Assembly (NCBI RefSeq): GCF_040215725.1
Contig: NZ_CP157968.1
Location: 1,054,001 to 1,118,000 of the forward strand
Direction of reading: 5' to 3'
Source of the DNA: Rhizobium sp. ZPR4
GTDB lineage: Bacteria > Pseudomonadota > Alphaproteobacteria > Rhizobiales > Rhizobiaceae
DNA: 64,000 nt
Shown here: positions 43,696-59,250 of the stretch, piece after piece
How positions within the stretch are numbered: the first letter of the stretch is position 1
How the letters are laid out: each line of letters opens with the position of its first letter
Made by a program: the position numbers and the translations under genes
The notes under the pieces: model-generated
Database searches by the model: none
What the model saw: the letters and a program-made list of their open reading frames with translations, nothing else
What the model was told of the DNA's origin: nothing

Positions 43696-45437
43696 GTTTT
43701 TTCCACCGGCTTCAGCTCGAGCGGATCTTCTCCTCGCTTCAATAGCCAGGAATAGACCGGCGGTACCCGGTCTGCGATGGATTCGACGTGAATGTCGATA
43801 AAGCACGGCCCGTCGTCCTGAGCAAAGGCGGCTGCGAGCGCGCCATCGAGTTGCGAAGCCGTCTTGGCTGTCCATGCCTTGAGACCATAGGCCTCCGCGA
43901 TTGCCTGACCGCGCGGTGCCAGAAAATCCACGCCAAAGCACTGATTATGGCCTTTGAGCCGATGGAGGCCCTTGATCCAGCCGAATGTCCCGTTGTTGAA
44001 GAGGATAAGGATTGCCGGCACCTGCAAACGCACCAGTGTTTCCAATTCGCCGACCGTCATGCCGAACGATCCGTCACCGAAGAGACCGATCGGCCTCTTG
44101 GATGGATCGGCCCGCCAAGCTCCGACTGTGGCGGGAAGCGCCGAACCGAGGCCACCAAAGGCACGTGGTATGGCAAAGCGGGTCTCGCGATCATTGATTT
44201 TGAGGAAGCGCGTCATGTATGGGGTCGGCGTTCCGGCGTCAGAGTAGATGAGCGCGGGCTTGCCGGAGGATTGGAGAGCCTGATTGAAGGCACGCACGGC
44301 GCGCTCGGGCCGCAACGGAACTCGTTCGTCCGAAAGCGCCTCCTCCGCATGCTCCCAAAAGACTTGCCGGCGCCGGTTGAGCTCGCTGACCCAGGCTTCA
44401 TGCCGGGCAGGTTCGATACTTGCTTTCAGCTCCAGCAACTCCTTGAGGACCAGCAAGGCATCTCCTTGGATGGACAACAGATTCTCGTAGTTGTTTGCCA
44501 TGATTTCCGGTGAGATATCGATCTGTGCCAGCCGCCGATTGAGGGTGATCCGCGGGAAGGTCCAGCCGATGGTGACGACCGAGCCGATGCGGGAGCCCAC
44601 GAACAGCGTGAAATCAGAATGTTCAAGCGCCCAGTTCGCATGAGGATGATATCCGTTGTCGCCGATGACGCCGATTGCCAGGCGATGGTCGTCATCGATG
44701 GCCCCCTGACCGGTCATCGTCGTGCACATCGGCACGTTGAATTTCTCGGCAAGCCGGGTGATCTCGTCGCCTGCGCGGGCGCGGTTCACCCCACCGCCTG
44801 CCACGATCAGCGGCCGCTCGGCCTTGGAAAGGAGCTCCAGCAGCCCTTCGAGTTTCGCGCGCGGCGGCAGCGTTGGATAGGCCGGGAAGGTGCGGCATTC
44901 CTCTTCGACATGCAGGGATATCCGGGTCAAGTCTATCTCGGCCAACAGCATGTCCTCGGGAATCTGCAGATGCACGGCGCCAGGTTTGCCAGAGCAGGCG
45001 ACACGGAAGGCGCGGCGGATGATTTCGGGCAGCTTTTCCGGCGTCTTTACCTGCACGGACAGCTTTGTGACCGGTTCGAACAGTTTCGCGCAATCCAATT
45101 CCGTTAGAACGCCGCGTCCCTCGCCCGGCAGTGGAATGTCGATGGTCAGCAGGATTACCGGCACCGACGATCCGTTCGATTCAGCGACCGGCGGTAAAGA
45201 ATACATCGCGCCTGCGCCCGACGGGCATTCAAACACGCCTGGCTTGTTGGTGAACCGTCCGTAAGCGTCTGCCATGAAGCCGGCAGAGCGCTCGTCGCGG
45301 GCCATCACATGCCGTATTTCGCCTTCCCGGTGCTGGAGTGCTTCATAGAGCGGCACATTGGTATCTCCGGGAACACCAAAGATCGTATCAACCCCGTAGC
45401 CAATGAGCATATCTACCAGAATGTCCGCACCGCGCAT
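43686..45437 (-). CDS. Thiamine-diphosphate-dependent enzyme, acetolactate-synthase-like
   Basis: 583 residues with all three ThDP-enzyme domains. The N-terminal pyrimidine domain has the conserved glutamate in VMARDERSAGFMADAYGR (about 47), the central domain RPLIVAGGGVNRARAGDE, and the C-terminal domain the cofactor motif GDGSFGMTVGELETLVRLQVPAILILFNN (about 440-470). Start 45437 has GGAGA seven bases upstream. The gene is isolated, so it is not the biosynthetic ilvB. It could be an oxo-acid decarboxylase or carboligase. A hairpin with 8-bp arms (45487-45494 and 45498-45505) lies in its leader. Confidence 0.85.
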   Translation of the reverse strand: MRGADILVDMLIGYGVDTIFGVPGDTNVPLYEALQHREGEIRHVMARDERSAGFMADAYGRFTNKPGVFECPSGAGAMYSLPPVAESNGSSVPVILLTIDIPLPGEGRGVLTELDCAKLFEPVTKLSVQVKTPEKLPEIIRRAFRVACSGKPGAVHLQIPEDMLLAEIDLTRISLHVEEECRTFPAYPTLPPRAKLEGLLELLSKAERPLIVAGGGVNRARAGDEITRLAEKFNVPMCTTMTGQGAIDDDHRLAIGVIGDNGYHPHANWALEHSDFTLFVGSRIGSVVTIGWTFPRITLNRRLAQIDISPEIMANNYENLLSIQGDALLVLKELLELKASIEPARHEAWVSELNRRRQVFWEHAEEALSDERVPLRPERAVRAFNQALQSSGKPALIYSDAGTPTPYMTRFLKINDRETRFAIPRAFGGLGSALPATVGAWRADPSKRPIGLFGDGSFGMTVGELETLVRLQVPAILILFNNGTFGWIKGLHRLKGHNQCFGVDFLAPRGQAIAEAYGLKAWTAKTASQLDGALAAAFAQDDGPCFIDIHVESIADRVPPVYSWLLKRGEDPLELKPVEKTYF

Positions 45438-45827
45438 TCGTCTCTCCTTTTGTCTCGCCGCGACGATCAGAATAGTGAAGCGGAGGTTTGCCGGGGACCG
45501 GCAAATCGGCGGCTTGAAGCGGCCGTAGCCGTCAATCTGCCGGCCCGGTCCTTGAGATTGCATGGAGCTGCAGTGTGCCAAGTGCATCGCAATCATGAAT
45601 CTGTTGGACGAAGGAAGGATGTTACGAAAACATCCACCATGGAAAGATCGCGGCTGCAGTGGTGCGATGCCTGCGCCATTTGGCTCTATTCCCGCCGGGC
45701 TCGCGCATGGTCGAGGATATGCAGGCGGATTGCGGTATCATCGTCGTCATGATCCATCGTACTATTCGGAACCGGGTTGAGAATGTTGGCCGGTATTTCG
45801 CCATGCAGATTTCGGGCGAAATTCCCC
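45438..45827. other. 390-bp region between the TPP enzyme and the LacI gene, no gene recognised
   Basis: The left part is the leader of the TPP enzyme gene and contains a perfect inverted repeat TTTGCCGG/CCGGCAAA (45487-45505). The rest has short frames on both strands with no domain or ribosome-site support. The LacI gene ends at 45828. Confidence 0.45.
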
Positions 45828-46856
45828 TCATACGTTTTCACGAGTATAGATGTCGAAGGGGACGATCTTTGTGTAGCTGGCATTCTCCGCCTTGGCTCCG
45901 GTGGCCATGACCATGCCTTTCATCGTTTCGCCGGCGAGGCGGGTGAGTGGATGGGCGATGGATAGAGTGAGCGTTCCATCGAGCAGAGCCGCCTTCACAT
46001 TGTCCATGAGTTCGTAGCCGACGACGGCCAGGGTGCCGGCCCGTCCGGTCGTACGCAGAGCCGCCAGCACGCCGGAAATGCCGCCGCCGGCAACGTAAAG
46101 GCCGGCAAGATCGGGATGATCCGCCAGCAGGCGTTCGGTCATTTCCTGCGCCACGGCGGAGGACTCGAAGGTCGAAAGAGGCTCGAGCAACACGAAGTCT
46201 CGGGCGTGCTCACGAAAATAAGAACGAAAGCCGGTCTCGTTCATTTCCTGATTCCGGTAGCGTGGATTGCCCATCAACAAGCCGATTTTGCCCGGGCTTT
46301 TGCAGATATGGTCAAAGGCCCAGGCCGCAGTGCGTCCAACCTTCCAGTTATCCAGCCCGATATAGTGGACCTGGCCTGTCGCGGCGACTTGCGAGATCAG
46401 CGCAAAGACGGGGATGCCTCCAGCCTGGATCTTTTCCAGCGCCTGAAGGACGATGGGATGGACTGCGGTTGTTATGCAGAGCGCATCACATTCCTCGGCC
46501 AGCGCCAGCGCCCGGTCTGCGGTGTTCTGGGGCGAGAGGTCTTCCAGATGCTCGATCCGCAGATCGAGTTCGGCGGTTTCTATCGCTGCGGCTGCCTCCT
46601 GCAAGGCCTGCGCCACGAGCTGGTAGAATGGCCGGTGCGGTTGGAGGAGCAGCACGCCGAAGCGATATTTCGGGCGGGCTGCCGCATTGCGTGCCTCGAT
46701 GGCTCCAAGCCCATAGAAGCCGATGCTTTCAGCAGCAGCGCGGACCGTCTCTCGCGTCTGAGCCCGCACATTCTCCGCACCAGAGAGGACCCGATTGGCT
46801 GTCGCGATCGACACGCCTGCGGCCTCGGCGAGATTGCGGATGGTCGGTCTTCTCAT
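45828..46856 (-). CDS. LacI-family transcriptional regulator, probable regulator of the rhizopine operon
   Basis: 342 residues. N-terminal LacI HTH TIRNLAEAAGVSIATANRVLSGAENVRAQTRETVRAAAESIGFYGLGAIEAR (about 4-56) with hinge helix, then a type I periplasmic-binding-like domain for sugars (YRFGVLLLQPHRPFYQLVAQALQ; PVFALISQVAATGQVHYIGLDNWKVG). It is transcribed away from mocD with a 297-bp control region between them, containing a repeated ATGATACGA motif. Rhizopine regulators described elsewhere (MocR) are of a different family, so its role here is inferred from position. Confidence 0.87.
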   Translation of the reverse strand: MRRPTIRNLAEAAGVSIATANRVLSGAENVRAQTRETVRAAAESIGFYGLGAIEARNAAARPKYRFGVLLLQPHRPFYQLVAQALQEAAAAIETAELDLRIEHLEDLSPQNTADRALALAEECDALCITTAVHPIVLQALEKIQAGGIPVFALISQVAATGQVHYIGLDNWKVGRTAAWAFDHICKSPGKIGLLMGNPRYRNQEMNETGFRSYFREHARDFVLLEPLSTFESSAVAQEMTERLLADHPDLAGLYVAGGGISGVLAALRTTGRAGTLAVVGYELMDNVKAALLDGTLTLSIAHPLTRLAGETMKGMVMATGAKAENASYTKIVPFDIYTRENV

Positions 46857-46865
46857 AGAAGCTCC

Positions 46866-46920
46866 ATGATACGAAATGTATTAATTTATCGACTTTCTGA
46901 GACGAATGATACGATCGTCT
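46866..46920. promoter_or_regulatory. Repeated ATGATACGA motif between the LacI gene and mocD
   Basis: ATGATACGA occurs at 46866-46874 and 46906-46914, exactly 40 bp apart. The first lies in an imperfect dyad ATAC-N5-GTAT (46869-46881), the second overlaps the palindrome ACGATCGT (46911-46918). Spacing near four helical turns would place two repressor dimers on one face of the DNA. Confidence 0.4.
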
Positions 46921-47153
46921 ATGGAGAGAGAAATGCGCCTTGATTTCATGGAGGTCAAGTTGGCATTGTCCTTGCCAGAGGGCGACGGGTGAACGCGCAC
47001 GCGGCTCACGGCGCTCTGGGAGAGAAATACAATCGACATCGCTGCTTATGCGCTTTGGGCCTTCGCCCGAAGAGCGCCGTGCTCTGTCCGCGCGATCTGC
47101 GGCACCTCTCTCTCATCACGAACAGGGACGCTCGATGTCCAGGAGGCATGACG

Positions 47154-48176
47154 ATGGATGATCTCAATTACGGAACTCGGAACAAGCGCGGCGACTGGGC
47201 GCCCCATGGACGGATCGAAATTGCGCCTTTCTGGTCCTGGCCGCCGAAGATCCCGTCCGTGCTGAAGTGGGTGCCGGAATATATCTGGCCGTGGAATGCC
47301 TTTCACATGGCAACAGCACTTCTCTACTGGTTCTACGTCGTGCCTGGCGTTGACGTCATGAAGACATTAAGTTGGAGCTGGGCACTCTGGCTTTACGCGG
47401 TCAATGCGGCTGCGATCTTTGTTTTCTATGGCTCCATCGAACTCTTTTTCTACGTGAAGCGTAAGCAGGGCAATCGCTTTAAATACAACGCCAAGTTCCC
47501 GAGCGAGCAACCATCCGATGTCTTCTGGTTCAAGAGCCAGAACATCGACAATTTCCTGCGCTCGTTCTTCTTGTCGATCCCGCTGTGGACTCTCGTTGAG
47601 GTCTTGTTCCTGTGGGTGTTTGCCAACGGTTGGGTGCCTTGGCTGAGCTGGTCGGGCCATCCCTATTATCTGGCATTTCTCGTCGCCATCGCGCCGATGA
47701 TCCATGAGGTCCATTTCTTCATTATTCACCGCCTCATTCATTGGGGGCCGCTTTATCGCTGGATCCATTCGGTCCACCATAATTCGGTGAACCCGTCGCC
47801 GTGGTCCTCGCTCTCCATGCATCCGGTTGAAGGCTTTCTCTATCACGCCGTTGCCCTCTGGCACCTCGTCATCCCGTCCAATCCGATAGTCGCGCTGTTC
47901 CAGCTCCACATTGCCGGCTTCGGTGCGGTCAACGGCCATATCGGTTTCGACAAGCTGGAGATCACCGAGGAGACACCGCTCGATACCCATGCCTATGCCC
48001 ATTACCTGCATCACAAATACTTCGAGGTGAACTATGGCGGCGACGGGCTGATCCCGCTCGATAGGTGGTTCGGCACCTGGCACGACGGTACCAAGGAAGG
48101 TGACGTGCAGATGCAGGCCCGCTTTGCCAAAAAGAGAGAGCGCATGAACGCAAAGACGGTTCGCGCAAACTCCTGA
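47154..48176 (+). CDS. mocD: MocD-like membrane diiron hydroxylase (fatty acid hydroxylase/sterol desaturase superfamily)
   Basis: 340 residues with five to six membrane segments and the three histidine boxes of the superfamily: HRLIH (about 192), HSVHH (about 206) and HYLHH (about 285). These bind a diiron centre for O2-dependent C-H hydroxylation. In Rhizobium rhizopine loci the MocD oxygenase works with a ferredoxin (MocE) and reductase (MocF), and all three occur here. The expected reaction is O-demethylation of L-3-O-methyl-scyllo-inosamine with release of formaldehyde. Start 47154 has AGGAGG seven bases upstream; ATG 47148 is only one base from it. Confidence 0.82.
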   Translation: MDDLNYGTRNKRGDWAPHGRIEIAPFWSWPPKIPSVLKWVPEYIWPWNAFHMATALLYWFYVVPGVDVMKTLSWSWALWLYAVNAAAIFVFYGSIELFFYVKRKQGNRFKYNAKFPSEQPSDVFWFKSQNIDNFLRSFFLSIPLWTLVEVLFLWVFANGWVPWLSWSGHPYYLAFLVAIAPMIHEVHFFIIHRLIHWGPLYRWIHSVHHNSVNPSPWSSLSMHPVEGFLYHAVALWHLVIPSNPIVALFQLHIAGFGAVNGHIGFDKLEITEETPLDTHAYAHYLHHKYFEVNYGGDGLIPLDRWFGTWHDGTKEGDVQMQARFAKKRERMNAKTVRANS

Positions 48177-48194
48177 ATTCACGGAATTCCCAGA

Positions 48195-48214
48195 TGTCCG
48201 CGAGGAGGCGGACA
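48195..48214 (+). terminator. Short stem-loop between mocD and mocB
   Basis: Arms TGTCCGC (48195-48201) and GCGGACA (48208-48214) with a six-base loop, 18 bp after the mocD stop. No U-run follows, so read-through into mocB is expected. Confidence 0.45.
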
Positions 48215-48293
48215 CTCTCGGAACAAGGGCCACCACGCCCGCAGCACAATGCTTTTTAAACCCGTCGCATGACGGAAACTGGGAGGAAATTCG

Positions 48294-49268
48294 ATGACAA
48301 TGCTGACCACCATGACCAAGGCGCTCGCGACCTCGGTTGCCCTCTGTCTCACCGCAAGCGTGTTGCTTGCCGCCGACATTGCCGTCGTCGGCGGCAAGAC
48401 CGACGACGCCTTCTGGAGCAAGATCAAGAAAGGAGTGGACGACAGCCGCCTCGTCGTAGCGGCGAACGGCGGCAAGGTGACCTATCTCCAGCTACAGACC
48501 TACGACAATCTCGGTCCAGACGCCGCCGGTCTTGTGCGCACCGCCATCAGCCAGGGCGTCAAGGGTCTCGTCGTTCCCAACTGGGTGCCGGAGGCCGAAG
48601 ATGAAGCGATCAAGGCCGCCGTCAGCAGTGGCATCAAAGTCATCCTCATGAATGCCGGCTCGCTCGACAAGGCGAAGGAACTCGGTGCCATCAATTATGT
48701 CGGCTCGGATGAATACCTCGCCGGGCTCGCTGGCGGACAATATTTTAGCAAGAGCGGTCAGAAAAAGGTGCTCTGCGTCAACACGCTGCCCGGCAGCGCC
48801 AACCAGGAAGCACGCTGCAAGGGTGTAATCGACGGTATCGGCAAGGCCGGTGGTGCAGGCAAGCAGCTGCCGCTGCCGGCGACCAGCTTCGGAGACCCCA
48901 CTGCGATTGCCGAAGCCGTCAAGGCGACGCTGACACAGGACAGCGCGATCGACGGCGTCATCACGATCGGTGCGGGCGACGCGGATGCGGCGGCAAGTGG
49001 TATCCAGCAGGCCGGCAAAGCCGAAACCGTGAAGCTTGGCTCCTTCGACTTCAATCAGGCGGGGCTCGACCGCATCAAAAGCGGTGCGCAGCTCTTCGCT
49101 ATCGATCAGCAGCCCTATCTTCAGTCGCTGCTCTCCGTTTCCCTGTTGGCATCCAATATCGATTTTGGCACTGACCTGCCGGTGAAACCGGTCTTGACCG
49201 GACCGGGCATTGTGGACGCCTCAAATATCGAAACGACGCTTGCAGGCGTGTCTAAGGGCGCGCGCTGA
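48294..49268 (+). CDS. mocB: Rhizopine/inositol-type ABC substrate-binding protein
   Basis: 324 residues with signal peptide (MTKALATSVALCLTASVLLA, cleavage near residue 26). The sugar-binding type I fold follows: DIAVVGGKTDDAFWSKIKKGVDDSRLVVAANGG, LVRTAISQGVKGLVVPNWVPEAEDEAIKAAVSSGIKVILMNAG and KVLCVNTLPGSANQEARCKGVIDGI. MocB is the known periplasmic binding protein of rhizopine loci, and inositol-binding proteins are its closest relatives. Position after mocD and before a CUT2 permease and ATPase supports this role. A strong hairpin follows the gene. Confidence 0.82.
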   Translation: MTMLTTMTKALATSVALCLTASVLLAADIAVVGGKTDDAFWSKIKKGVDDSRLVVAANGGKVTYLQLQTYDNLGPDAAGLVRTAISQGVKGLVVPNWVPEAEDEAIKAAVSSGIKVILMNAGSLDKAKELGAINYVGSDEYLAGLAGGQYFSKSGQKKVLCVNTLPGSANQEARCKGVIDGIGKAGGAGKQLPLPATSFGDPTAIAEAVKATLTQDSAIDGVITIGAGDADAAASGIQQAGKAETVKLGSFDFNQAGLDRIKSGAQLFAIDQQPYLQSLLSVSLLASNIDFGTDLPVKPVLTGPGIVDASNIETTLAGVSKGAR

Positions 49269-49282
49269 GCTGCGCGCTTCCA

Positions 49283-49315
49283 GGTTGCTCCCTGTGACCT
49301 CCCCAGGGAGCAACC
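49283..49315 (+). terminator. 12-bp stem-loop between mocB and the permease gene
   Basis: Perfect arms GGTTGCTCCCTG (49283-49294) and CAGGGAGCAACC (49304-49315) around a nine-base loop, 15 bp after the mocB stop. No U-run is seen. The likely effect is stabilisation of the mocB message and partial attenuation of the membrane genes. Confidence 0.7.
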
Positions 49316-49354
49316 ATAGCCACAACACGGCACAGCCCGCGAAGGGGAATCATC

Positions 49355-50410
49355 ATGAATTCGAAAACCGCAACTCAACCGATCGCCATGGCGCAGACGC
49401 TGCCTCCTGCACGGGCCGCTGGTATATCCATCGGCGGACTGTTCCGCCGGCCCGAAGCAGGCGCCTTTCTCGGCCTTTTCGGCGTCTTCATCTTCTTCCT
49501 CGTCTTCGGGAGCATCGATTTCCTGAAGCCGACGGGTGCTGCGAGCTGGCTGAACGTCGCGGCCAATCTCGGCATCGTCGCCTTCCCGATTGGCCTGCTG
49601 ATGATCGCCGGTGAGCTTGATATTTCCATCGGTTCGATGATCCCCGCCGGTTCCATGACGGTTGCGATCATATCGGGCTATTATGATCTGCCGATCTGGC
49701 TCGGTATTGCAGCTTCGCTCGCTTTTGGCGTCATCGTCGGCCTTATCAACGGCATCCTTGTCGTGCGAACCAACGTGCCCTCATTGATCGTTACCCTCGG
49801 AACTCTTTTTGCCGTGGCGGGTCTGGTGCTTGGCCTTTCGGTGCTGCTTACCGGCACGACGAGTGTCGCCATCAAGGCGCCGGAGCTGGCAAAGTTCCTC
49901 TTTGGCCACTTCGTTGCCAACACGTTCCAGGTTATCATCTTCTGGTGGCTGGCGCTGACGGCACTCTACATCTACGTCGTTCATTATTCGATCTATGGCA
50001 ACTGGATCTTCGCCATGGGTGGCGACAGGATCAGCGCCCGCAACGCCGGTATTCCAACGACAAAGCTGACCATCGCCCTGTTCGTGCTCTCGTCGACCAG
50101 TGCCTCTTTCGTCGGGATGTGTCAGGCGATCTTGTTCAACTCCGCCCAGGTCTCGGCTGGCATGTCCTTCATCTTCAACTCGATCATATCGGTGGTCGTG
50201 GGTGGCGTATTGTTGACCGGCGGCTTCGGCTCCATCGTCGGGATCTTTTTCGGCACCATCACCTTTGCCGTCGTCAATCAGGGTATCTACTTCACATCGT
50301 TCGACCGCAACTGGTCGAGCCTCATTATCGGCGTGATGCTTCTGCTTGCCGTATTGATGAACAACACCTTCCGCAGCATGGCGCTCTCCTATTCGCCGAA
50401 GAAGAAGTGA
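49355..50410 (+). CDS. Sugar/inositol-type ABC transporter permease (CUT2)
   Basis: 351 residues with about nine to ten hydrophobic segments. Family signatures are IGLLMIAGELDISIGSMIPAGSMTVAII (about 78-105), VPSLIVTLGTLFAVAGLVLG and SIISVVVGGVLLTGGFGSIVGIFFGTITFA (about 282-312). GAAGGGGAATC precedes ATG 49355. It forms the inner-membrane channel for the MocB ligand. The N-terminal 35 residues are a hydrophilic extension rich in Ala and Pro. Confidence 0.92.
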   Translation: MNSKTATQPIAMAQTLPPARAAGISIGGLFRRPEAGAFLGLFGVFIFFLVFGSIDFLKPTGAASWLNVAANLGIVAFPIGLLMIAGELDISIGSMIPAGSMTVAIISGYYDLPIWLGIAASLAFGVIVGLINGILVVRTNVPSLIVTLGTLFAVAGLVLGLSVLLTGTTSVAIKAPELAKFLFGHFVANTFQVIIFWWLALTALYIYVVHYSIYGNWIFAMGGDRISARNAGIPTTKLTIALFVLSSTSASFVGMCQAILFNSAQVSAGMSFIFNSIISVVVGGVLLTGGFGSIVGIFFGTITFAVVNQGIYFTSFDRNWSSLIIGVMLLLAVLMNNTFRSMALSYSPKKK

Positions 50411-50418
50411 GGTCGGCC

Positions 50419-51246
50419 ATGTCTACCCCCATTCTGAAACTCAGAAACATTTGCAAGTCCTTCGGTCCCATCGATGTCCTCACCGATATTTCCCTGGATA
50501 TCCGTCCTGGCGAGGTACTCTGCCTGCTCGGCGACAATGGTGCGGGCAAGTCGACGCTGATCAAGACATTGTCGGGCGTCTATCGTCCGAACTCCGGTAC
50601 AATCGAGATGGACGGGAAACCCATCGAATTCACCGGTCCGCGGGACGCCAGCAGCCGCGGCATCGCGACAGTCCATCAGTTCGGCGGCACGTTTCCCTTG
50701 ATGAGCATCGGCCGCAGTTTCTTCGTCGGTGTCGAACCGACCAAGGGCTGGGGACCATTCAAGATCTTTGACCGCAGACGAGCAAACGAGATTGCGGTCA
50801 AGGCCATCCGAGACTTTGGCATCACGCGTATCGACGATGGCGACCGGCTGGTCGGCGGGCTGTCGGGCGGGGAGCGGCAGTCGCTCGCCATTGCCCGTGC
50901 CGTCCATTTCGGCGCGAAGGTGCTGATCCTCGACGAACCGACTGCAGCGCTTGGCGTGAAGCAGGCGACCCACGTGCTCCGGATCGTCAACGAAGCCAAG
51001 CGCCGGGGCCTGGCGGTCGTCTTCATCACCCACCAGGTCATGCACGCCATGGCGGTGGGCGATCATTTCGCGGTGCTGATCCGCGGCGCGATCGCCGCCG
51101 ATTTCCGTAAGGGAGAGAAGACGCGCGAGGAAATCACCGACCTCATGGCGGGTGGCGAGACGATGGCGGAACTCGAAGCCCAGATCGATGGCTATATGAC
51201 GACCCATGACGGTCATGCGCCGCAGCTTTCCGGTGCGGCGGGTTAG
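50419..51246 (+). CDS. Sugar/inositol-type ABC transporter ATP-binding protein (single domain)
   Basis: 275 residues with Walker A GDNGAGKSTLIK (about 38-49), signature LSGGERQSLAIARAV (about 148-162), Walker B VLILDEPTAALGV and H-loop FITHQ. The Q-loop reads VHQFGGTFPLM, an unusual variant. ATG 50419 gives the normal N-terminus ILKLRNICKSFGPIDVL; the frame upstream belongs to the permease region in another reading. It is eight bp behind the permease gene and completes the importer. Confidence 0.92.
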   Translation: MSTPILKLRNICKSFGPIDVLTDISLDIRPGEVLCLLGDNGAGKSTLIKTLSGVYRPNSGTIEMDGKPIEFTGPRDASSRGIATVHQFGGTFPLMSIGRSFFVGVEPTKGWGPFKIFDRRRANEIAVKAIRDFGITRIDDGDRLVGGLSGGERQSLAIARAVHFGAKVLILDEPTAALGVKQATHVLRIVNEAKRRGLAVVFITHQVMHAMAVGDHFAVLIRGAIAADFRKGEKTREEITDLMAGGETMAELEAQIDGYMTTHDGHAPQLSGAAG

Positions 51247-51285
51247 CCTGCTGACCCTCAGGAACCGAAATGCAAAAAGGATGAA

Positions 51286-51600
51286 ATGATGGGGACCTGG
51301 ACCCGCGCGTGCGCAGCCGAGGATGTCGAACTCGAAGACCTTTACCGTTTCGATAGTGGCGGGCGCACCTTTTTGCTGATCCGCAGTCCCGAGGACGAGT
51401 TCTTCTGCATCGATGGCATCTGTACCCATGAACGGGTGCATCTTGCCGATGGCCTCGTCATGGACGGCATCATCGAATGTCCGAAGCACAACGCGCACTT
51501 CGACTACAAGACCGGCGAGGCGACCCGGGCGCCTGCCTGCATCAACCTCAAGACCTGGCCGGTCCGCATCGAGAACGGCGATATTTTCGTAGAGATCTGA
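51286..51600 (+). CDS. mocE: MocE-like Rieske [2Fe-2S] ferredoxin
   Basis: 104 residues, the length of a stand-alone Rieske ferredoxin. The cluster ligands are CTH (about 45-47) and CPKH (about 65-68) in the spacing of the Rieske family, with two Cys and two His. It would shuttle electrons from the reductase (54646-55872) to the MocD diiron hydroxylase. Start 51286 has AAGGA seven bases upstream. It sits five bp before the next gene. Confidence 0.88.
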   Translation: MMGTWTRACAAEDVELEDLYRFDSGGRTFLLIRSPEDEFFCIDGICTHERVHLADGLVMDGIIECPKHNAHFDYKTGEATRAPACINLKTWPVRIENGDIFVEI

Positions 51601-51604
51601 CGAT

Positions 51605-52384
51605 ATGACACAGTTTGCATTGGCGGCTTGCGCCGAAATGATCTGGCGGGACCGCCCCATCGAATGGCGCGCGTCTCGCCTCAAGGAAATGGGGTTCGGC
51701 GTCGGCCTCTGGAACTGGCCGCAGCATGATCTTGCCAAGCTAGAAGCGACCGGGGCGGCCTTCACCATCATGAACGGCTATCTCACCGGCCGCCTTACGG
51801 ACGACGAGGGGGCCGATGAGCTTCTGCGGACCGCGCGCGAAACGGCTGAGGTCGGCAAGCGCCTCGGCGTCCAGCGCCTCAACCTGCATGGCACGGGCCT
51901 TGGTGAGGGCGGGCTTCCCGTCCAGCCGATCGAGGTCGTGACCGGCGCCATGTGGTTGAAGGCACGCGACACGCTCCGCCGCGTCGTCGACATGGCGGAG
52001 GAGAAAGGCGTTACCTTCACGCTGGAAAACCTGAACCTGCCGGTTGACCACCCTGGCGTCCCCTTTGCCCGTGCCGAAGATACGCTTGCCCTGGTGTCGA
52101 GCATCGACCATCCGCGGCTCCGGCTCAATCTTGACCTTTATCATGCGCAGATCGGCGAGGGGAACCTGATCGAACTTTGCCGCAAGTGCTTGCCCTTCAT
52201 CGGTGAAATTCAGGTGGCCGATGTTCCCGGCCGCTGCGAACCCGGCACCGGCGAGGTGAACTGGCATGGCATCGCCAAGGCTCTCAAGGCGATGGGCTAT
52301 GCCGGACCGGTCGGCATGGAGGCCTTCGCCTCCGGCGATCCGGAAGCGGCTCTCGAAGCTTTCCGCAACGCATTCACGGTATAG
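51605..52384 (+). CDS. mocC: MocC-like hydroxypyruvate-isomerase/xylose-isomerase-fold protein
   Basis: 259 residues of the AP-endonuclease-2/hydroxypyruvate-isomerase TIM barrel. FTLENLNLPVDHPGVPF (about 138-154, metal-binding Glu), LRLNLDLYHAQIGEGNLIELC (about 175-195, Asp and His ligands), GEIQVADVPGRCEPGTGEVNW (about 200-220) and GMEAFASGD (about 237) show the metal site. MocC of rhizopine loci and IolE/IolH of inositol loci share this fold. It may act on the inosose or inosamine product of MocA/MocD, as an isomerase or dehydratase (inference). It lies five bp after mocE. Confidence 0.82.
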   Translation: MTQFALAACAEMIWRDRPIEWRASRLKEMGFGVGLWNWPQHDLAKLEATGAAFTIMNGYLTGRLTDDEGADELLRTARETAEVGKRLGVQRLNLHGTGLGEGGLPVQPIEVVTGAMWLKARDTLRRVVDMAEEKGVTFTLENLNLPVDHPGVPFARAEDTLALVSSIDHPRLRLNLDLYHAQIGEGNLIELCRKCLPFIGEIQVADVPGRCEPGTGEVNWHGIAKALKAMGYAGPVGMEAFASGDPEAALEAFRNAFTV

Positions 52385-52388
52385 TTCC

Positions 52389-53213
52389 ATGGTTCATAAG
52401 AATACCCGTCCGACCGTCGCCGACATTCGTGCCATGAAGGCGCGGGGCGAAAAGATTTCCATGCTCTATGTCACGACGCCGGAGGAGGCTGCGGCCGCTG
52501 ACGCCGCGGGTATCCACATGCTTTCGATCGAAGGTCGTTTCTTCTCGCCGGAGATGCGCGCAGCGGCGGGGCGCTGCTTCGTGCAGGTCGGCCTTCCCTA
52601 TGGCGGATGGGGCAAATTCGAGGGCCGGCCGCTTGCGACCGCCGAGGACTATCTGCGCGCCGCCTTTCATTTTTCCGCCATGGGGGGAGATTGCTTCTAC
52701 TGCGCGGCATCGCTGGATATCCAGAAAATGCTTTGCGACAACCACGTCCCGATCGTCGCCCATGTCGGGTTGATTCCCTCCTACATTACCTGGACAGGGT
52801 TTCGAGCGGTGGGCAAGACGGCACAGGAGGCGCTTGACGTCTTCCGGCACGTCAAGCGGCTCGAGGCAATCGGCTGCTTCGGCGCGGAGCTGGAGGTCGT
52901 GCCCGATCGCGTCGGCGAGCTGATCTCCCGGAATACCTCGATGATCATGCTGGGCATGGGCGCCGGGCCAGGTGCGGATGCGCAGTATCTCTTTGCTGAA
53001 GACGTGCTCGGCCACACTGACGGCCACCGGCCGCGCCACGCCAAGACCTATCGCAACTTCGCCGCCGAATTCGACAGGCTACAGAAGGAGCGTATTGCCG
53101 CCTTCCGTGAGTTCATCGCCGATGTGAACACCGGCGCCTATCCGCAGCCGCAGCACAATGTCGCGATCGGCGACACGGAATTCAACGCTTTCAAAGCCGA
53201 ACTCGGCCTCTGA
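52389..53213 (+). CDS. PanB-like (ketopantoate hydroxymethyltransferase / isocitrate-lyase superfamily) protein
   Basis: 274 residues, the length of PanB. DAAGIHMLSIEGRFFSPEM matches the first metal loop of PanB, but the Asp in the usual VGDSLGM is replaced by a glutamate context. HVGLIPSYITWTGFRAVGKTAQEALDVFRHVKRLEAIGCFGAELEVVP (about 125-172) and MLGMGAGPGADAQYLFAEDVLG (about 195-216) match PanB, with the catalytic Glu in AELEVVP kept. PanB adds a hydroxymethyl group from methylene-tetrahydrofolate to an oxo acid. Between mocC and mocA it could take part in C1 transfer or aldol chemistry; this gene is not part of the rhizopine model I know. Confidence 0.72.
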   Translation: MVHKNTRPTVADIRAMKARGEKISMLYVTTPEEAAAADAAGIHMLSIEGRFFSPEMRAAAGRCFVQVGLPYGGWGKFEGRPLATAEDYLRAAFHFSAMGGDCFYCAASLDIQKMLCDNHVPIVAHVGLIPSYITWTGFRAVGKTAQEALDVFRHVKRLEAIGCFGAELEVVPDRVGELISRNTSMIMLGMGAGPGADAQYLFAEDVLGHTDGHRPRHAKTYRNFAAEFDRLQKERIAAFREFIADVNTGAYPQPQHNVAIGDTEFNAFKAELGL

Positions 53214-53231
53214 TCAACAAAGGAAAATCCC

Positions 53232-54233
53232 ATGCTTAAAGTTGGCCTTCTTGGTGCCGGCCGCATTGCCGGCGTGCACGCCACCGCGATCTCCAGCCAT
53301 CCGGGCAGCACACTGGTTGCCGTATCCGATATCAACACGGTGGCAGCAGAAAAGATCGCCGGCCAGTACGGCGCCGAGGCGCGAGACACCGACGCCATCC
53401 TCGGTGACAGCGCAATCGATGCCGTGCTGATCGCCACCTCCACCGACACGCATTCCGACCTCATCGAAAGGGCGACGGCGGCTGGCAAGGCGGTGCTTTG
53501 CGAAAAGCCCGTCGATCTCAGCCTTGCGCGGGCGCTTAGCTGCCAGAAGACCGTTGCCGCCACAGGCCGTCCCGTGATGATCGGTTTCAACCGCCGTTTC
53601 GATCCGAACTTTTCGACGCTGAAGAAGGCTGTCGATGCGGGTGAGATCGGCAAGCCGGAGTTGCTGTCGATCACTTCCTTCGATCCCGCTCCCCCGCCGG
53701 TTGCTTATGTTAAGGTCTCGGGCGGTCTCTTCCGAGACATGATGATCCACGACTTCGACATGGCGAATTTCATTATGGGCGCGGCGCCGGTCACGGTGAC
53801 GGCAGTCGGCTCTTCCATCGTCGATCCGGCAATCGGAGAGGCAGGGGACGTCGATACGGCTGTGGTGGCACTTACCTATGCCGATGGCCGCATTGCCGTC
53901 ATCAAGAACAGCCGTCGCGCCGTCTATGGCTATGACCAGCGGGTCGAACTGCTGGGCTCCGAAGGGTTGCTGCAGGCACAGAACATGCTGGAAAACACCG
54001 TCGTGAAATCGACAACGCAAGGCGTGACCGGCGCCAAGCCGAACTATTTCTTCCTGGAGCGCTACATGCCGGCCTATGCGGCCGAATGGGCGGCTTTCGT
54101 GGATGCGGTCAATGGAAACAAGGTTTTGCCGGTGACGCTTGCTGATGGCGTTGCCGCGCTGGCCATGGCGGAAGCGGCAACCCTCTCGGTCAAAACCGGT
54201 GCTCCCGTCTCGCTTGCGACCCTGCTCGGCTGA
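53232..54233 (+). CDS. mocA: Inositol 2-dehydrogenase/MocA-type NAD-dependent dehydrogenase
   Basis: 333 residues of the Gfo/Idh/MocA family, named after the rhizopine enzyme. The Rossmann loop is VGLLGAGRIAGVHATAI (about 4-20), followed by the EKP signature (VLCEKPVDLSLARAL, about 90-104) and GGLFRDMMIHDFDMANFIMGA (about 163-183), which has the catalytic Asp and His. AAAGGA precedes ATG 53232. It would oxidise scyllo-inosamine or myo-inositol to the inosose, feeding the iol pathway. MocA and IolG are not separable by eye; the neighbours favour the rhizopine role. Confidence 0.87.
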   Translation: MLKVGLLGAGRIAGVHATAISSHPGSTLVAVSDINTVAAEKIAGQYGAEARDTDAILGDSAIDAVLIATSTDTHSDLIERATAAGKAVLCEKPVDLSLARALSCQKTVAATGRPVMIGFNRRFDPNFSTLKKAVDAGEIGKPELLSITSFDPAPPPVAYVKVSGGLFRDMMIHDFDMANFIMGAAPVTVTAVGSSIVDPAIGEAGDVDTAVVALTYADGRIAVIKNSRRAVYGYDQRVELLGSEGLLQAQNMLENTVVKSTTQGVTGAKPNYFFLERYMPAYAAEWAAFVDAVNGNKVLPVTLADGVAALAMAEAATLSVKTGAPVSLATLLG

Positions 54234-54327
54234 GTCTCGCAGCGTCCCTCTATGGCGGAAAGACAAATCCAAACGGTCGCGCCAAAGCGGCCGCCATCCC
54301 TCCTTTCGCAATGCCGGGAGATCGGAA

Positions 54328-54615
54328 ATGCTGTCATCCTCGAACTTGAAGACACCGCTGAGCATACGGGAGCTGAAGCAGCTGATTGCCGACCGGCACA
54401 TCGATTTTCCTGCCCTTCCGGAACAAGCGATGCGGCTACTTCTCAGCAAGCCGGAGATTATCGCCTTCGGAACGCTGCAGTCGGTTGCGCGAAACTGCGG
54501 CGTTTCGCGAACCACCATCATCCGACTTGCGTCTCGAAGCGGATATTCGAGCTTCAAAGAGATGAAGGGCGCTTTTCGTCAACACCTGATCTCCGTCACC
54601 CGGACGAACCAATAA
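54328..54615 (+). CDS. RpiR-type DNA-binding domain without the SIS sugar-binding domain
   Basis: 95 residues only. The HTH_6 domain (SIRELKQLIADRHIDFPALPEQAMRLLLSKPEIIAFGTLQSVARNCGVSRTTIIRLASRSGYSSFKEMKGAFRQHLI) covers nearly the whole protein. Full-length RpiR regulators are about 280 residues with a C-terminal SIS phosphosugar-binding domain, missing here; the next gene starts 30 bp later. ATG 54328 has GGGAGA seven bases upstream, so it is likely translated. It may be a regulator fragment that still binds DNA, or the remains of a deletion. RpiR proteins commonly control inositol genes in rhizobia. Confidence 0.8.
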   Translation: MLSSSNLKTPLSIRELKQLIADRHIDFPALPEQAMRLLLSKPEIIAFGTLQSVARNCGVSRTTIIRLASRSGYSSFKEMKGAFRQHLISVTRTNQ

Positions 54616-54645
54616 TCGACTTGGATAGCAGCAAAGGCTTTTGCG

Positions 54646-55872
54646 ATGACTTCTTTCGTTATCATTGGGGCAGGGGAGTGCGGTGCGCGTGCCGCTCTGA
54701 CCTTGCGTGAGCGCGGTTTTGCGGGAGATGTGACGCTCGTCGGCAGTGAGGCACTCCTGCCCTATGAACGACCGCCCTTGTCCAAGGCGGGACTTCTACA
54801 GGGTGCCGAGCCCAAATGGATCGCGGATGTCGGCCGCTACAAGGAGCTCGGTATCGCAATTCGGATCGGTACAACCGCAATTGCCATCGATCGCCTGCAA
54901 AAGATTGTCGAGCTTTCCGATGGCACCACGCTTGGCTATGACAAGCTGCTTCTGGCGACCGGCGCGAGACCGCGCGAGCTTGGAAATGCCGTCAGTACGC
55001 ACGGCCACATCCGTTCACTGAGAACCCATTCAGACGCCATGGCGCTGCGGCCATTCCTGAAATCCGGCCGGTCCATCGCGATCTTCGGCGGCGGCTTCAT
55101 CGGCCTCGAGCTCGCGGCCAGTGCCAGAACGCTTGGTGCATCGGTCATCCTGCTCGAAGGACTGCCTCGTATTCTGTCGCGAGGTGTCCCGGCGGAGATC
55201 GCTGCGCGGATCGCAGACCGTCACGCGGCTGAGGGGGTAGACATCCGCTGTGGCGTGAAAATCCTTTCCGTCACAGAGACGGTTGCAGGTGTTTCGATAG
55301 CTCTTGACGGAGCTGATATGATCGCCGCCGATATTCTGGTCGTCGGGATCGGCGCCATTCCGAATGCTGAATTGGCCGCGGTTGCAGGTCTTGCGATCGA
55401 GAACGGCATCTCGGTGGACAGCAACTTGCGCACCAGCGATCCCGACATTTTCGCGGCCGGTGATTGCTGTTCCTTTCCCTCGGTCCATTTCGGTGACCGT
55501 CGGCTTCGCCTTGAATCCTGGCGCAACGCACAGGAGCAGGGGGTTCGCGCAGCGGCTTGTATGATGGGGGCGACCGAGGCGCCGCTATCCGTCCCCTGGT
55601 TCTGGTCGGACCAGTATGATCTGACGCTCCAGGTCACAGGACTTGCCGACGGAGCGATGACGATGATCAGGCGCAACCTCTCTGAGGATGCGTTCATCCT
55701 GTTCCACCTGGATGGAGGTGGAAAAATCCTCGCCGCAAGCGGTATCGGACCGGGCAATTCGGTCGCCCGCGACATTCGTCTGGCTGAAATGTTGATTGCC
55801 GCCGGAAGACGACCCGATCCGACGGCACTCGCAAATCCGGAAATGAAACTGAAGCAGTTGCTCGCCGCCTAG
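54646..55872 (+). CDS. mocF: MocF-like FAD/NAD ferredoxin reductase
   Basis: 408 residues of the rubredoxin/ferredoxin-NAD reductase family. FAD loop VIIGAGECGARAALTLRERGF (about 5-25), LPYERPPLSKAGLL (about 38-51), NAD loop SIAIFGGGFIGLELAASARTLGA (about 144-166) and IFAAGDCCSFPS (about 270) are visible, with a reductase C-terminal domain after about 320. It would pass electrons from NADH to the Rieske ferredoxin MocE and so to MocD. The only ferredoxin gene in the window is MocE, supporting the pairing. Confidence 0.87.
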   Translation: MTSFVIIGAGECGARAALTLRERGFAGDVTLVGSEALLPYERPPLSKAGLLQGAEPKWIADVGRYKELGIAIRIGTTAIAIDRLQKIVELSDGTTLGYDKLLLATGARPRELGNAVSTHGHIRSLRTHSDAMALRPFLKSGRSIAIFGGGFIGLELAASARTLGASVILLEGLPRILSRGVPAEIAARIADRHAAEGVDIRCGVKILSVTETVAGVSIALDGADMIAADILVVGIGAIPNAELAAVAGLAIENGISVDSNLRTSDPDIFAAGDCCSFPSVHFGDRRLRLESWRNAQEQGVRAAACMMGATEAPLSVPWFWSDQYDLTLQVTGLADGAMTMIRRNLSEDAFILFHLDGGGKILAASGIGPGNSVARDIRLAEMLIAAGRRPDPTALANPEMKLKQLLAA

Positions 55873-55907
55873 CGACTTATCCGAACTTGACGCAGAGAAT
55901 GACAACA

Positions 55908-56795
55908 ATGATGACTTCATATACCCTGACCGTATCCTGCCAATCGACACGTGGGATTGTTGCAGCGATCTCGAACTATCTGGCCGGTGAGGGCTGCAAC
56001 ATCGTCGATTCCAGCCAGTTCGACGATCTCGATACCGGCATGTTCTTCATGCGCGTCTCCTTCATCTCCGAGGAAGGTGTCGGCGAGGCAGCCCTGGTCG
56101 AAGGCTTCAAGCCGATCGCCGAGAAGTTCGCCATGGTGTCAGAGTTCCACGATGCCAGGAAGCGCATGAAGGTGCTGCTCATGGTCTCGCGCTTCGGCCA
56201 TTGCCTCAACGACCTGCTCTATCGCTGGAAGATCGGCGCCCTGCCGATCGACATCGTCGGCGTCGTCTCCAACCATTTCGACTACCAGAAAGTGGTGGTC
56301 AACCACGATATCCCCTTCCACCATATTCCGGTGACCAAGGCCAACAAGCCGGAGGCGGAAGCCAGGATCATGGATGTGGTCGAGCAGACCGGCACGGAGC
56401 TGATCGTGCTCGCCCGCTACATGCAGATCCTGTCGGATTCCATGTGCCAGAAGATGTCGGGCCGCATCATCAACATCCACCATTCCTTCCTGCCGTCCTT
56501 CAAGGGGGCGAACCCCTACAAGCAGGCCTATGAGCGCGGGGTGAAGCTGATCGGGGCGACGGCGCATTATGTGACGGCCGATCTCGACGAGGGTCCGATC
56601 ATCGAGCAGGACACGGCGCGCATCACGCATGCGCAGTCGGCCGAGGACTATGTCTCGATCGGCCGCGATGTGGAGAGCCAGGTGCTGGCCCGCGCCATCC
56701 ATGCGCATATCCATTTCCGCACCTTCCTCAACGGCAACCGCACCGTCGTCTTCCCGGCAAGTCCGGGGTCCTATGCCTCCGAGCGCATGGGGTGA
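55908..56795 (+). CDS. purU: Formyltetrahydrofolate deformylase
   Basis: 295 residues. An ACT-like N-terminal domain (YTLTVSCQSTRGIVAAISNYLAGEGCNIVDSSQFDD) is followed by the formyltransferase-like catalytic domain, with the catalytic triad region NIHHSFLPSFKGANPYKQAYERGVKLIGATAHYVTADLDEGPIIEQD. It hydrolyses 10-formyl-THF to formate and THF. In demethylase operons this drains formaldehyde-derived C1 units. The start is ATG 55908, with GAGA nine bases upstream; 55899 and 55911 are alternatives. A relic of folD, the usual partner, follows. Confidence 0.9.
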   Translation: MMTSYTLTVSCQSTRGIVAAISNYLAGEGCNIVDSSQFDDLDTGMFFMRVSFISEEGVGEAALVEGFKPIAEKFAMVSEFHDARKRMKVLLMVSRFGHCLNDLLYRWKIGALPIDIVGVVSNHFDYQKVVVNHDIPFHHIPVTKANKPEAEARIMDVVEQTGTELIVLARYMQILSDSMCQKMSGRIINIHHSFLPSFKGANPYKQAYERGVKLIGATAHYVTADLDEGPIIEQDTARITHAQSAEDYVSIGRDVESQVLARAIHAHIHFRTFLNGNRTVVFPASPGSYASERMG

Positions 56796-56798
56796 GTG

Positions 56799-56994
56799 AT
56801 GACGCTCGCAACAGTGATCGACGGGAAACAAGCGGCGGCTGGTGGGCGATGTCGCCTATGGCGAAGCTTCCGAAGTCGCGGCCGCCATCACGCCGGTTCC
56901 GGGCGGTGTTGGTCCGATGACGATCGCCATGCTGATGGCCAATACCGTCATCGCCGCCCATCGCTCAGCCAGCAGAAAGCCGCCGAGGTTTTAG
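56799..56994 (+). pseudogene. folD: folD remnant: N- and C-terminal ends with a large internal deletion
   Basis: ATG 56799 starts [10 protein letters not shown], the normal FolD N-terminus, and from about 56839, in the next frame, the sequence reads [42 protein letters not shown], the conserved FolD C-terminus, to TAG 56992-56994. About 230 residues between them are missing. FolD is the methylene-THF dehydrogenase/cyclohydrolase needed with PurU to turn C1 units into formate. Its loss means this locus depends on another folD in the genome. A GTG three bases earlier (56796) is an alternative start. The deletion left a frame change, so no fusion product of the two ends is made. Confidence 0.85.
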
Positions 56995-57122: not shown

Positions 57123-58202
57123 TTATTGACCGTTGCGGGATGGGGAGGCGACCGATCCGCGTTTGATCAGGCTCGTTTTGATGGCAATTCGCTCGACAGG
57201 CAGATCCTTGCCGTTCAGCCGCGAGATCAGACGCTCGGCCGCCTTCTTGCCCATCTCGTAGACAGGCTGGTCGACGACGGTAATCGGCGGTGTCGTGACG
57301 GTCGTCCAGTCCGCATCCAGAAAAGAGATCATCGATATATCGCGCGGTATGGACAATCCCAGTGTCTGCAGGGTCTTGAAGATCCTAAGTCCGACGAGAC
57401 TGTCTGATGCGATGAGGGCGGTCGGCGGCGCCATGTCCTGCAGCAAGCTCTTGACGACAGCGTCAGTCCTGGGCTGATTGGTTGCGCCAAGCCGCACGTA
57501 ATATCGAGCCGTCTCAATGCCGGCATCAGCCTGCTGCTTCAGCACGCCTTCCACGCGTTCGCGCACTGCGGAATTGGAAATGCTGCGGCTATCGCCAAGG
57601 AGTTCGCTCTCGGCATCCATCGCCGATATATAGGCGATCCGCCGATGCCCCATATCGAGAAGATGGCGGGTGGCGATCATGGCCGCGTCAAAATCATCGC
57701 CGGTCACCGCATCGACGCCCAGCTCCGGAATGCTTCTGTCAAACAGAACGAGCGGCACGCCAACGCGACGTATGTCCCGAAGATGCCCCATCTGGTCGCA
57801 GCGCGCCGGCGTCACGATCAATCCATCGACGCGCTTGCCGATGAGCAGGTCGACCGCTGACTTTTCCGTATCGAGTTCTTCACCGGAATTGGCAATGATC
57901 ACATTGAAGCCGGCCATGCGCGCGGCATCGCTGATTCCTCGGACGGCAAGGCTGAAGAAGGCATTTTCGATATCGCCGACCACAACCCCGATGATGCCGG
58001 ATTTACCTGTCGTCATACTACGGGCAAGTTCGTTTGGCCGGTATTCGAGCGCCGCGGCAGCGGCAAGCACCTGCTCGCGAACCTTGTCGCTGACGACGCC
58101 GTAGCCGCCGAGCACACGAGCCGCGGTGGCCTTCGAGACATTCGCTGCCCTGGCAACATCGGCGACTGTAACGGAGCGTTTCGAGGTGAGGGGCTCTTCC
58201 AT
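57123..58202 (-). CDS. LacI-family transcriptional regulator of the adjacent amino-acid-type operon
   Basis: 359 residues. LacI HTH SVTVADVARAANVSKATAARVLGGYGVVSDKVREQVLAAAAALEYRPNELARSMTTGKSGIIGVVVGDIENAFF (about 10-84), hinge and type I binding domain. It is transcribed away from the binding-protein gene at 58389, and two tandem operators (58262-58294) lie between. It is a probable repressor of the 58389-62009 operon and perhaps of itself. The weak ribosome site before ATG 58202 leaves the start uncertain. Confidence 0.87.
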   Translation of the reverse strand: MEEPLTSKRSVTVADVARAANVSKATAARVLGGYGVVSDKVREQVLAAAAALEYRPNELARSMTTGKSGIIGVVVGDIENAFFSLAVRGISDAARMAGFNVIIANSGEELDTEKSAVDLLIGKRVDGLIVTPARCDQMGHLRDIRRVGVPLVLFDRSIPELGVDAVTGDDFDAAMIATRHLLDMGHRRIAYISAMDAESELLGDSRSISNSAVRERVEGVLKQQADAGIETARYYVRLGATNQPRTDAVVKSLLQDMAPPTALIASDSLVGLRIFKTLQTLGLSIPRDISMISFLDADWTTVTTPPITVVDQPVYEMGKKAAERLISRLNGKDLPVERIAIKTSLIKRGSVASPSRNGQ

Positions 58203-58261
58203 GGGATGACGATTACAAGAGTTGTTGACGGACGGTCAATCTGAAGTTAACAAATAGCATT

Positions 58262-58294
58262 GAGACCGGTCTCTTTTTGCATGATACCGGTCTC
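58262..58294. promoter_or_regulatory. Two tandem LacI-type operators, 21 bp apart
   Basis: GAGACCGGTCTC at 58262-58273 is a perfect 12-bp palindrome with the central CG of LacI-family operators. GATACCGGTCTC at 58283-58294 is the same with one difference. They start 21 bp apart, two helical turns, between the LacI gene and the binding-protein gene. Upstream, TTGACG (58225-58230) and TAACAA (58248-58253) are 17 bp apart and could be a weak promoter for the rightward operon. Confidence 0.78.
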
Positions 58295-58388
58295 TTGTCC
58301 AGATAATCTCTTGCCGATATATGGTCGGGGAATACGGACGCGCATGCACGAATGCCGATAAGAGCATCCTTCAGAGCGGAGAACGAAC

Positions 58389-59216
58389 ATGAAATTATTC
58401 AGTATTTTCTCGGCCATAGCCGCGCCTCTGCGCGCTGGCGCGCTGGCCTATCTCGTCGCAGCAAGCGTTGGCCCGGCGGTCGCCGCCGATAATCCCTACA
58501 ATCTGATCGATCCGGGCGTCATCAGCGTCGGTACGATGGGAGATTCCAAGCCCTACACCTTCACGACGGCCGATGGCCAATTCACCGGCTTCGATATCGA
58601 ACTCTTTCTGAATGTCGTTTCGCGCATGGGCTTTCCCAAGGACAAGGTGACGTTCACCGGCCAGGAATTCTCGGCCCTGCTGCCGTCGGTCGCCAACCAG
58701 CGCTTCGACGTCGCCGTTGCCGCGATCGGAACCACCGAGGCACGTAAGAAAACGGTCGATTTCTCCGATGGTTATCTCGCCGGCTATCTCTCGGTTCTGA
58801 CATCGGATACCTCGATCAAGGATGCAACCGGCCTCAAGGGCAAACGCCTCGGCGTCGTGCAGGGCACCTTGCAGGAGATCTACGCTGCGAAGAATTTCGC
58901 AGGCACCGATCTTGTCAAATTTCCGGACAACAATTCTGCCGTCGCGGCGCTGAACAACGGCACCGTCGACGCGCATTTCCTCGATTATGAAGCAGCCAAA
59001 CAATATGGCGAGCGCTATCCGGCATTGAAGATTGCGGTGAATATCCCATCCTTCGATGCACCGGCGGGCTTCGTCGTCCACAAGGGCAACGACGCCTTCC
59101 GTCTGGCGCTCAACAAGGCGCTGCACGAAGCCATGCAGGACGGCACCTGGAAGACGCTCTATGAGAAGTGGTTCCCCGGCTCGCCGATGCCCGATCAATA
59201 TCTTCCCAAGAAGTAA
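58389..59216 (+). CDS. Polar-amino-acid/opine-type ABC substrate-binding protein
   Basis: 275 residues, signal peptide [33 protein letters not shown] (cleavage near 33), then the SBP_bac_3 fold: [78 protein letters not shown] and [14 protein letters not shown]. Ligand is probably an amino acid, opine or polyamine-like compound. It is the first gene of the operon controlled by the LacI protein. A strong hairpin follows. Confidence 0.88.
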
Positions 59217-59222
59217 GGCCGC

Positions 59223-59250
59223 GCCGCCGTCCGGTTTGCCGGGCGGCGGC
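59223..59250 (+). terminator. 12-bp stem-loop behind the binding-protein gene
   Basis: Arms GCCGCCGTCCGG (59223-59234) and CCGGGCGGCGGC (59239-59250) with one G-T pair and a four-base loop, six bp after the stop. No U-run. It separates the binding-protein gene from the membrane gene and probably acts as an mRNA stabiliser. Confidence 0.7.

Follow-up and report, generated by a model that had tools for sequence, protein, structure and literature searches.

In the rhizopine (moc) loci of S. meliloti L5-30 and R. leguminosarum, the mocCABRDEF genes bring together a hydroxylase/ferredoxin/reductase trio, an ATP-binding cassette (ABC)-type binding protein and a Gfo/Idh dehydrogenase, with a link to inositol catabolism. 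Genes of the mocDEF kind have also been reported without mocCABR in P. syringae (PMC5132102), and LacI homologues adjoin mocDEF clusters, for which an inositol derivative was suspected as inducer (PMC3538637; the PMC articles named here and below are represented by excerpts). A second type of operon, annotated mocD/mocEa/mocFa in S. meliloti pSymB, R. leguminosarum and R. etli, contains a divergent LacI gene, a membrane di-iron oxygenase of the desaturase family PF00487, MocE, a reductase and a protein resembling the pantothenate enzyme PanB (hereafter PanB-like). The myo-inositol pathway, in turn, comprises IolG, E, D, B and C as well as a CUT2 transporter. Here, we describe an array of 12 genes in a window of 64 kb, that is, the whole stretch of DNA analysed (positions 1,054,001-1,118,000 of contig C2), from the 7.7-Mb genome of Rhizobium sp. 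ZPR4 (Rhizobiaceae). Its gene content points, with fair probability, to an operon that breaks down an O-methylated cyclitol, the best candidate being a methyl-inositol from plants, of the D-pinitol or ononitol type. The array shares its regulator, a membrane di-iron oxygenase, MocE, reductase and PanB-like protein with the second type of operon, but differs from those three examples in the family of its oxygenase and in possessing a transporter, an isomerase, IolG and the formyltetrahydrofolate deformylase PurU.

The array consists of one divergent gene for a LacI-family regulator (45828-46856, minus strand; PF00356 and Peripla_BP_4) and 11 co-directional genes on the plus strand (47154-56795), which are separated by 4-117 nt after correction of two start codons. 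Profile searches and the list of open reading frames (ORFs) agree with the count of 12 genes in a preliminary description of this DNA, provided that the LacI gene is included. The families named there are all present, but the PanB-like gene (52389-53213) and an RpiR-like gene (54328-54615) were left out, and the one-strand run drawn from 47154 to 56994 starts correctly, but its last gene ends at 56795. The same description placed an electron chain and PurU in one array, and this is borne out: hydroxylase, Rieske ferredoxin, ferredoxin reductase and PurU occur together, which fits oxidative demethylation and disposal of a one-carbon product. The enzyme in the MocD role is a membrane di-iron hydroxylase (47154-48176; FA_hydroxylase, PF04116, 67.2 bits) with the His clusters HRLIH, HSVHH and HYLHH in its translation, and it matches a homologue on S. 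meliloti pSymA at 58%. The Rieske ferredoxin (51286-51600) belongs to the MocE family (TIGR02377, 153.2 bits against a cut-off of 136.15), and the FAD-dependent ferredoxin reductase in the MocF role (54646-55872) finds its best NCBIfam match in NF041682 (AndAa) at 360.9 bits, below the cut-off of 650.

The link to inositol is provided by the dehydrogenase and the transporter. The dehydrogenase (53232-54233) scores as inositol 2-dehydrogenase IolG (TIGR04380, 431.4 against 355). The CUT2 transporter comprises a sugar/cyclitol-binding protein (SBP; 48294-49268, PF13407), a permease (49355-50410, PF02653) and an ATPase (50419-51246, PF00005). The top PDB match of the SBP, whose structure model has a mean predicted local distance difference test score (pLDDT) of 84.8, is 4ru1 (116 bits), which PMC10747050 refers to as a verified myo-inositol transporter; for S. 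meliloti, a myo-inositol SBP is described in PMC3454389. Thus, the array shares the IolG family and a CUT2 transporter nearest to an inositol binder with the myo-inositol pathway, but it holds only the entry step, and the host iolB, E, D and C genes are located on contig C1. The proximity of IolG and MocE recurs elsewhere: among 69 non-host MocE loci of Rhizobiaceae, 11 contain an IolG homologue of at least 45% identity in the fetched stretch, where about 0.16 would be expected from the TIGR04380 match density in 61 genomes of mixed size, which are not the MocE-bearing ones. Two of these 11 loci (L164, L169) are copies of the present array, and in eight of the other nine IolG lies 6-8 kb from MocE. 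In a Marivivens locus, an FA-desaturase, MocE and a PanB-like gene adjoin both an ABC transporter and the iol genes G, C, D, E and B.

A catabolic route, including the order of its steps, can be proposed from this gene content. The LacI regulator would sense the methyl-inositol or a product of it, and the CUT2 transporter would import the compound. Electrons would pass from NAD(P)H via the MocF-like reductase and the MocE ferredoxin to the membrane di-iron hydroxylase, which would hydroxylate the O-methyl group so that the methyl carbon leaves as formaldehyde. IolG would then oxidize the freed inositol, and in the case of a chiro-type ring the TIM-barrel sugar isomerase/epimerase encoded at 51605-52384 (PF01261), a possible inosose isomerase, could convert the ketone into the myo series, after which the iol genes on contig C1 would complete the catabolism of the ring. 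Formaldehyde would be loaded on tetrahydrofolate, in a condensation that the PanB-like protein may catalyse or channel, oxidized by FolD, whose gene has probably been lost here but is present in a sister locus, and released as formate via PurU.

The array is more than a chance assembly, since the syntenic block recurs across relatives. Sinorhizobium sp. RAC02 matches 99% of positions 47154-56900 at 82.3% DNA identity, and further syntenic copies are found in R. hidalgonense, Pararhizobium A13, Rhizobium 32-5/1, Shinella curvata, Gemmobacter fulvus and locus L169. A LacI gene occupies the equivalent position in six loci (L102, L103, L034, L023, L104 and L105; L102 and L103 are those of RAC02 and R. 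hidalgonense). The conserved core comprises eight genes, from the hydroxylase through IolG, and MocF-PurU forms a movable pair; in the window, RAC02, R. hidalgonense and Shinella it comes after IolG, and in Pararhizobium and Rhizobium 32-5/1 it is found past the LacI gene. The pair was not seen near the Gemmobacter core, and L169 has PurU with no match to MocF.

On the one-carbon side, PurU (55899-56795) is assigned by TIGR00655 (331.3 against 285.95). PanB-like, FolD and PurU genes are consecutive in Neotabrizicola (L025), and PurU is followed by FolD in RAC02 and R. hidalgonense. Among the 69 MocE loci, PurU was found near MocE in nine of the 46 with a PanB-like gene and in none of the 23 without one. 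Replicon C2 itself holds two further MocE-type oxygenase loci with differing one-carbon exits. One of them (L099, C2:1803000-1816989), the host's own copy of the desaturase-MocE-MocF-PanB-like operon, also has PurU and FolD; the other (L098, C2:1599000-1616000) contains a hydroxylase, MocE and MocF, with a glutathione-dependent formaldehyde dehydrogenase nearby on the other strand. The purU genes of the window and of L099 share 97.4% DNA identity, and an exchange between the two loci is probable. The DNA 3' of the window purU matches the DNA 3' of folD in L099, L102 and L103, including a stretch at 56829-56993 (plus strand) that aligns by blastn at 93.3% with L099 10609-10773, just 3' of its folD; therefore, folD has probably been lost from the window array. 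The glutathione-dependent enzyme stands beside MocDEF-type operons lacking a PanB-like gene in L028, L029 and L110, as well as in L098, and looks like a substitute route for the PanB-like protein. This pattern rests on few cases, because the enzyme occurs in only one of the 69 sampled MocE loci, a count that speaks against it.

The PanB-like protein shares the fold family PF02548 with PanB, although it matches profile positions 76-258 only, and it falls well below the curated PanB families (TIGR00222, 79.3 against 207.55; NF001452, 107.3 against 272). Its identity to the host PanB amounts to 24%, relative to PanB a loop is deleted, and its structure model has a pLDDT of 91.7. A role as the host pantothenate enzyme can be ruled out, as a PanB scoring 355 bits is encoded on contig C1. 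Residues were compared in 53 sequences (the window protein and 52 others, after two of at most 220 residues had been dropped), using E. coli PanB numbering and residue roles, with Asp45 and Asp84 as metal ligands. The window protein has Gly at both columns. At Asp84, Gly is found in 41 and Ala in 12 of the 53 sequences, Asp in none; Asp45, in a loosely aligned column, is kept in three. The Lys112 column is Tyr or Met in 51 and Glu114 is kept in none, whereas His136 and Glu181 are kept in all 53. In a survey of 199 Rhizobiaceae genomes, host included, MocE was detected in 51. Close PanB-like genes (at least 300 bits) numbered 50 in 41 genomes, all 41 of which have MocE, and for 47 of these 50 a MocE gene is found no more than 5 kb away (Fisher 2e-33, uncorrected for shared ancestry). 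A PanB-like gene lies within 5 kb in 46 of the 69 non-host MocE loci, namely 41 of 53 with a desaturase, four of 13 with a hydroxylase and one of three in which neither was seen. Minimal operons consist solely of LacI, oxygenase, MocE, MocF and PanB-like genes.

We tentatively propose that the PanB-like family is a dedicated formaldehyde-capturing folate enzyme, which would run only the half of PanB chemistry that joins formaldehyde and tetrahydrofolate to methylene-tetrahydrofolate, and would serve oxidative demethylases of unrelated folds (FA-hydroxylase and FA-desaturase, and with distant members VanA-type Rieske and PhyH oxygenases). In folate metabolism, it would correspond to the formaldehyde-activating enzyme Fae. 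This role is favoured because close homologues accompany MocE and oxygenases from two unrelated families, which would have a one-carbon unit as their shared product, and because folate enzymes come after the PanB-like gene in several loci. Several counts tell against it. Among lower-scoring PanB-like genes of the same genomes, one of 18 is near MocE and 17 are not, although some of these may be true PanB, and 23 of the 69 MocE loci have no PanB-like gene. In a set of plasmids and genome contigs gathered through MocE and PanB-like searches, MocE is present in 30 of 46 PanB-like loci and absent from 16, among the matches listed. A Pfam scan of the neighbours in four of these 16 found PhyH (L062, L064), a 2-oxoglutarate-Fe oxygenase (L064), an FA-desaturase (L058) and Rieske/VanA_C (L049). 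PanB-like candidates numbered 5593 of the 8000 scored at E<=1e-10, and true PanB may be among them.

It is about equally conceivable that the PanB-like protein handles no one-carbon unit and works instead on the sugar's carbon skeleton, as a C-C lyase or aldolase. Canonical PanB forms a C-C bond, and this alternative is retained chiefly because of the Pelagibacteraceae loci (L064-L070), in which PanB-like genes without MocE adjoin genes for iolD-like proteins, an HpcH aldolase and aldehyde dehydrogenase; five of these seven loci also contain PanE-like and other conserved genes. Against a lyase, the close homologues follow oxygenase-MocE pairs from two oxygenase families, the minimal operons contain nothing besides LacI, oxygenase, the electron carriers and the PanB-like gene, the PhyH or 2-oxoglutarate oxygenases stand near two of the scanned loci of Pelagibacteraceae type or other marine origin (L062, L064), and the residues of the metal and keto-acid site are gone.

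As for the substrate, PF01261 is the Pfam family of the inosose isomerase IolI, and a PF01261 protein acting as inosose isomerase would fit a product of the chiro-inositol kind, for instance pinitol after demethylation. Two results weigh against this choice: the TIM barrel reaches no NCBIfam cut-off, and the window IolG, at 114.4 against 540, falls far short of NF052679, the curated bifunctional type for D-chiro-inositol. For both reasons, pinitol is only one candidate. The mocDEF-like genes of R. mesoamericanum, whichever their oxygenase type, are induced together with iol genes by Mimosa exudate, for which the authors proposed rhizopine; the most concentrated component of this exudate, at 145 uM, is pinitol (PMC5789663). 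The same demethylase chemistry might also act on a different methylated sugar, such as an O-methyl-hexose of algal or bacterial origin, with IolG and the TIM barrel working on that sugar. The sources of two relatives would suit such a substrate: RAC02 comes from an algal phycosphere and Gemmobacter from an Anabaena culture. The TIM barrel, moreover, is similar to ketose epimerases and hydroxypyruvate isomerase. A non-inositol sugar is nevertheless unlikely, given an IolG above its inositol cut-off, an SBP nearest to a myo-inositol binder, and iol genes that adjoin MocE in other lineages, and a methyl-inositol remains the preferred substrate.

The preliminary description had read the array as a rhizopine locus, that is, one acting on L-3-O-methyl-scyllo-inosamine. 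By the available tests, the array is not such a locus, and even a rearranged form of one is very improbable. The reading could draw on the MocE-family ferredoxin and the MocF-like reductase, on the 46% identity between the window IolG and the MocA-like protein of our rhizopine reference locus (L074), and on rhizopine itself being an O-methyl-inositol derivative (PMC6668481). L074 scores above the cut-off of the rhizopine-SBP family NF052284, which was reached in seven of 297 Rhizobiaceae genomes, and contains genes for a MocR-like regulator (named by eye from sequence and place), a MocC/IolE-like protein, SBP, permease, ATPase and two Gfo/Idh dehydrogenases. It lies on plasmid NZ_CP084754.1, labelled Roseateles sp. 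XES5, a label that looks doubtful, as a matching contig is found in a genome placed in Rhizobiaceae. The window binding protein, previously labelled mocB, scores 163.9 bits against the NF052284 cut-off of 420, and no host-genome match to this family was obtained at 1e-60. The L074 SBP is 29% identical to the window SBP and 27% identical to a second stretch near 25.5-26.1 kb. Searches of the 64-kb window by tblastn with the MocR-like and MocC-like proteins of L074 (the latter not being MocC of S. meliloti L5-30) gave nothing at E 1e-3, and the regulators of the array are LacI and RpiR-like. The moc-box AAAGYGGYTCT (PMC10107442) was not found with up to two mismatches in the LacI-hydroxylase intergenic region (46857-47153), upstream of the hydroxylase, and no aminotransferase or deaminase is among the 12 genes. 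The dehydrogenase is IolG by curated family, and relatives of the array occur in aquatic Rhodobacterales, whose sources are an Anabaena culture, the biofilm of a hot spring and a hydrothermal site in the sea. In R. etli CIAT 652, the gene that bears the name mocD encodes a PF00487 desaturase without BLASTP similarity to the PF04116 hydroxylase of the window (E 0.37), a comparison made with the R. etli gene and not with MocD of L5-30. Thus, while sharing the oxygenase trio, an ABC-type binding protein and a Gfo/Idh dehydrogenase with mocCABRDEF, the array differs in having LacI in place of MocR, its own permease and ATPase, an SBP outside the rhizopine family, and the PanB-like protein and PurU. 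Offered a panel with myo-inositol, ononitol and pinitol among its compounds, a MocB/MocR biosensor responded to scyllo-inosamine and L-3-O-methyl-scyllo-inosamine (PMC6668481).

The RpiR-like gene encodes a 95-residue protein containing only a helix-turn-helix (HTH_6, 27.1 bits, slightly below the cut-off of 28.3). Its interpretation as a decayed fragment is ruled out by the conservation of a short ORF of the same kind in six relatives, at identities of 77% (L102), 65% (L103), 63% (L034, on the same contig as and equal to L164), 44% (L169), 36% (L104) and 32% (L105). To the left of the LacI gene, an acetolactate-synthase-like thiamine pyrophosphate enzyme (43686-45596) scores below all listed curated cut-offs; it is probably not a member of the array, because DNA homology to the relatives ends at the LacI gene. 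After the array, another LacI gene is found at positions 57123-60812, together with an ABC system of the amino-acid type, whose permease and ATPase share one ORF (59286-60812). A palindrome search of the LacI-hydroxylase intergenic region gave nothing useful, promoter and terminator scans were near chance (four found against 2.4 expected, and eight against 8.9), and tRNA and Rfam scans found none.

Production of pinitol and ononitol is widespread among legumes (PMC8730688). In the open-licence PMC literature, judged mostly from search listings, no bacterial demethylation genes for pinitol or ononitol surfaced, nor did any description of the present gene set, whether of a PanB-like protein with formaldehyde, demethylation or Rieske proteins, or of pinitol catabolism. 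The true panB of P. putida has been placed in a hydroxycinnamate-stress module, in an excerpt that holds nothing on the PanB-like family (PMC10949508). The locus described here offers a concrete set for methyl-inositol demethylation, consisting of a transporter, an electron chain, a dehydrogenase and a one-carbon exit, with conservation across several genera. In addition, the locus gives reason to re-examine the rhizopine labels on mocDEF-like genes, for instance those induced by pinitol-rich Mimosa exudate (PMC5789663). If the proposed function of the PanB-like protein is true, a large family would be misnamed as a pantothenate gene. The capture of formaldehyde by tetrahydrofolate is usually taken as spontaneous; in that case, it would have an enzyme.

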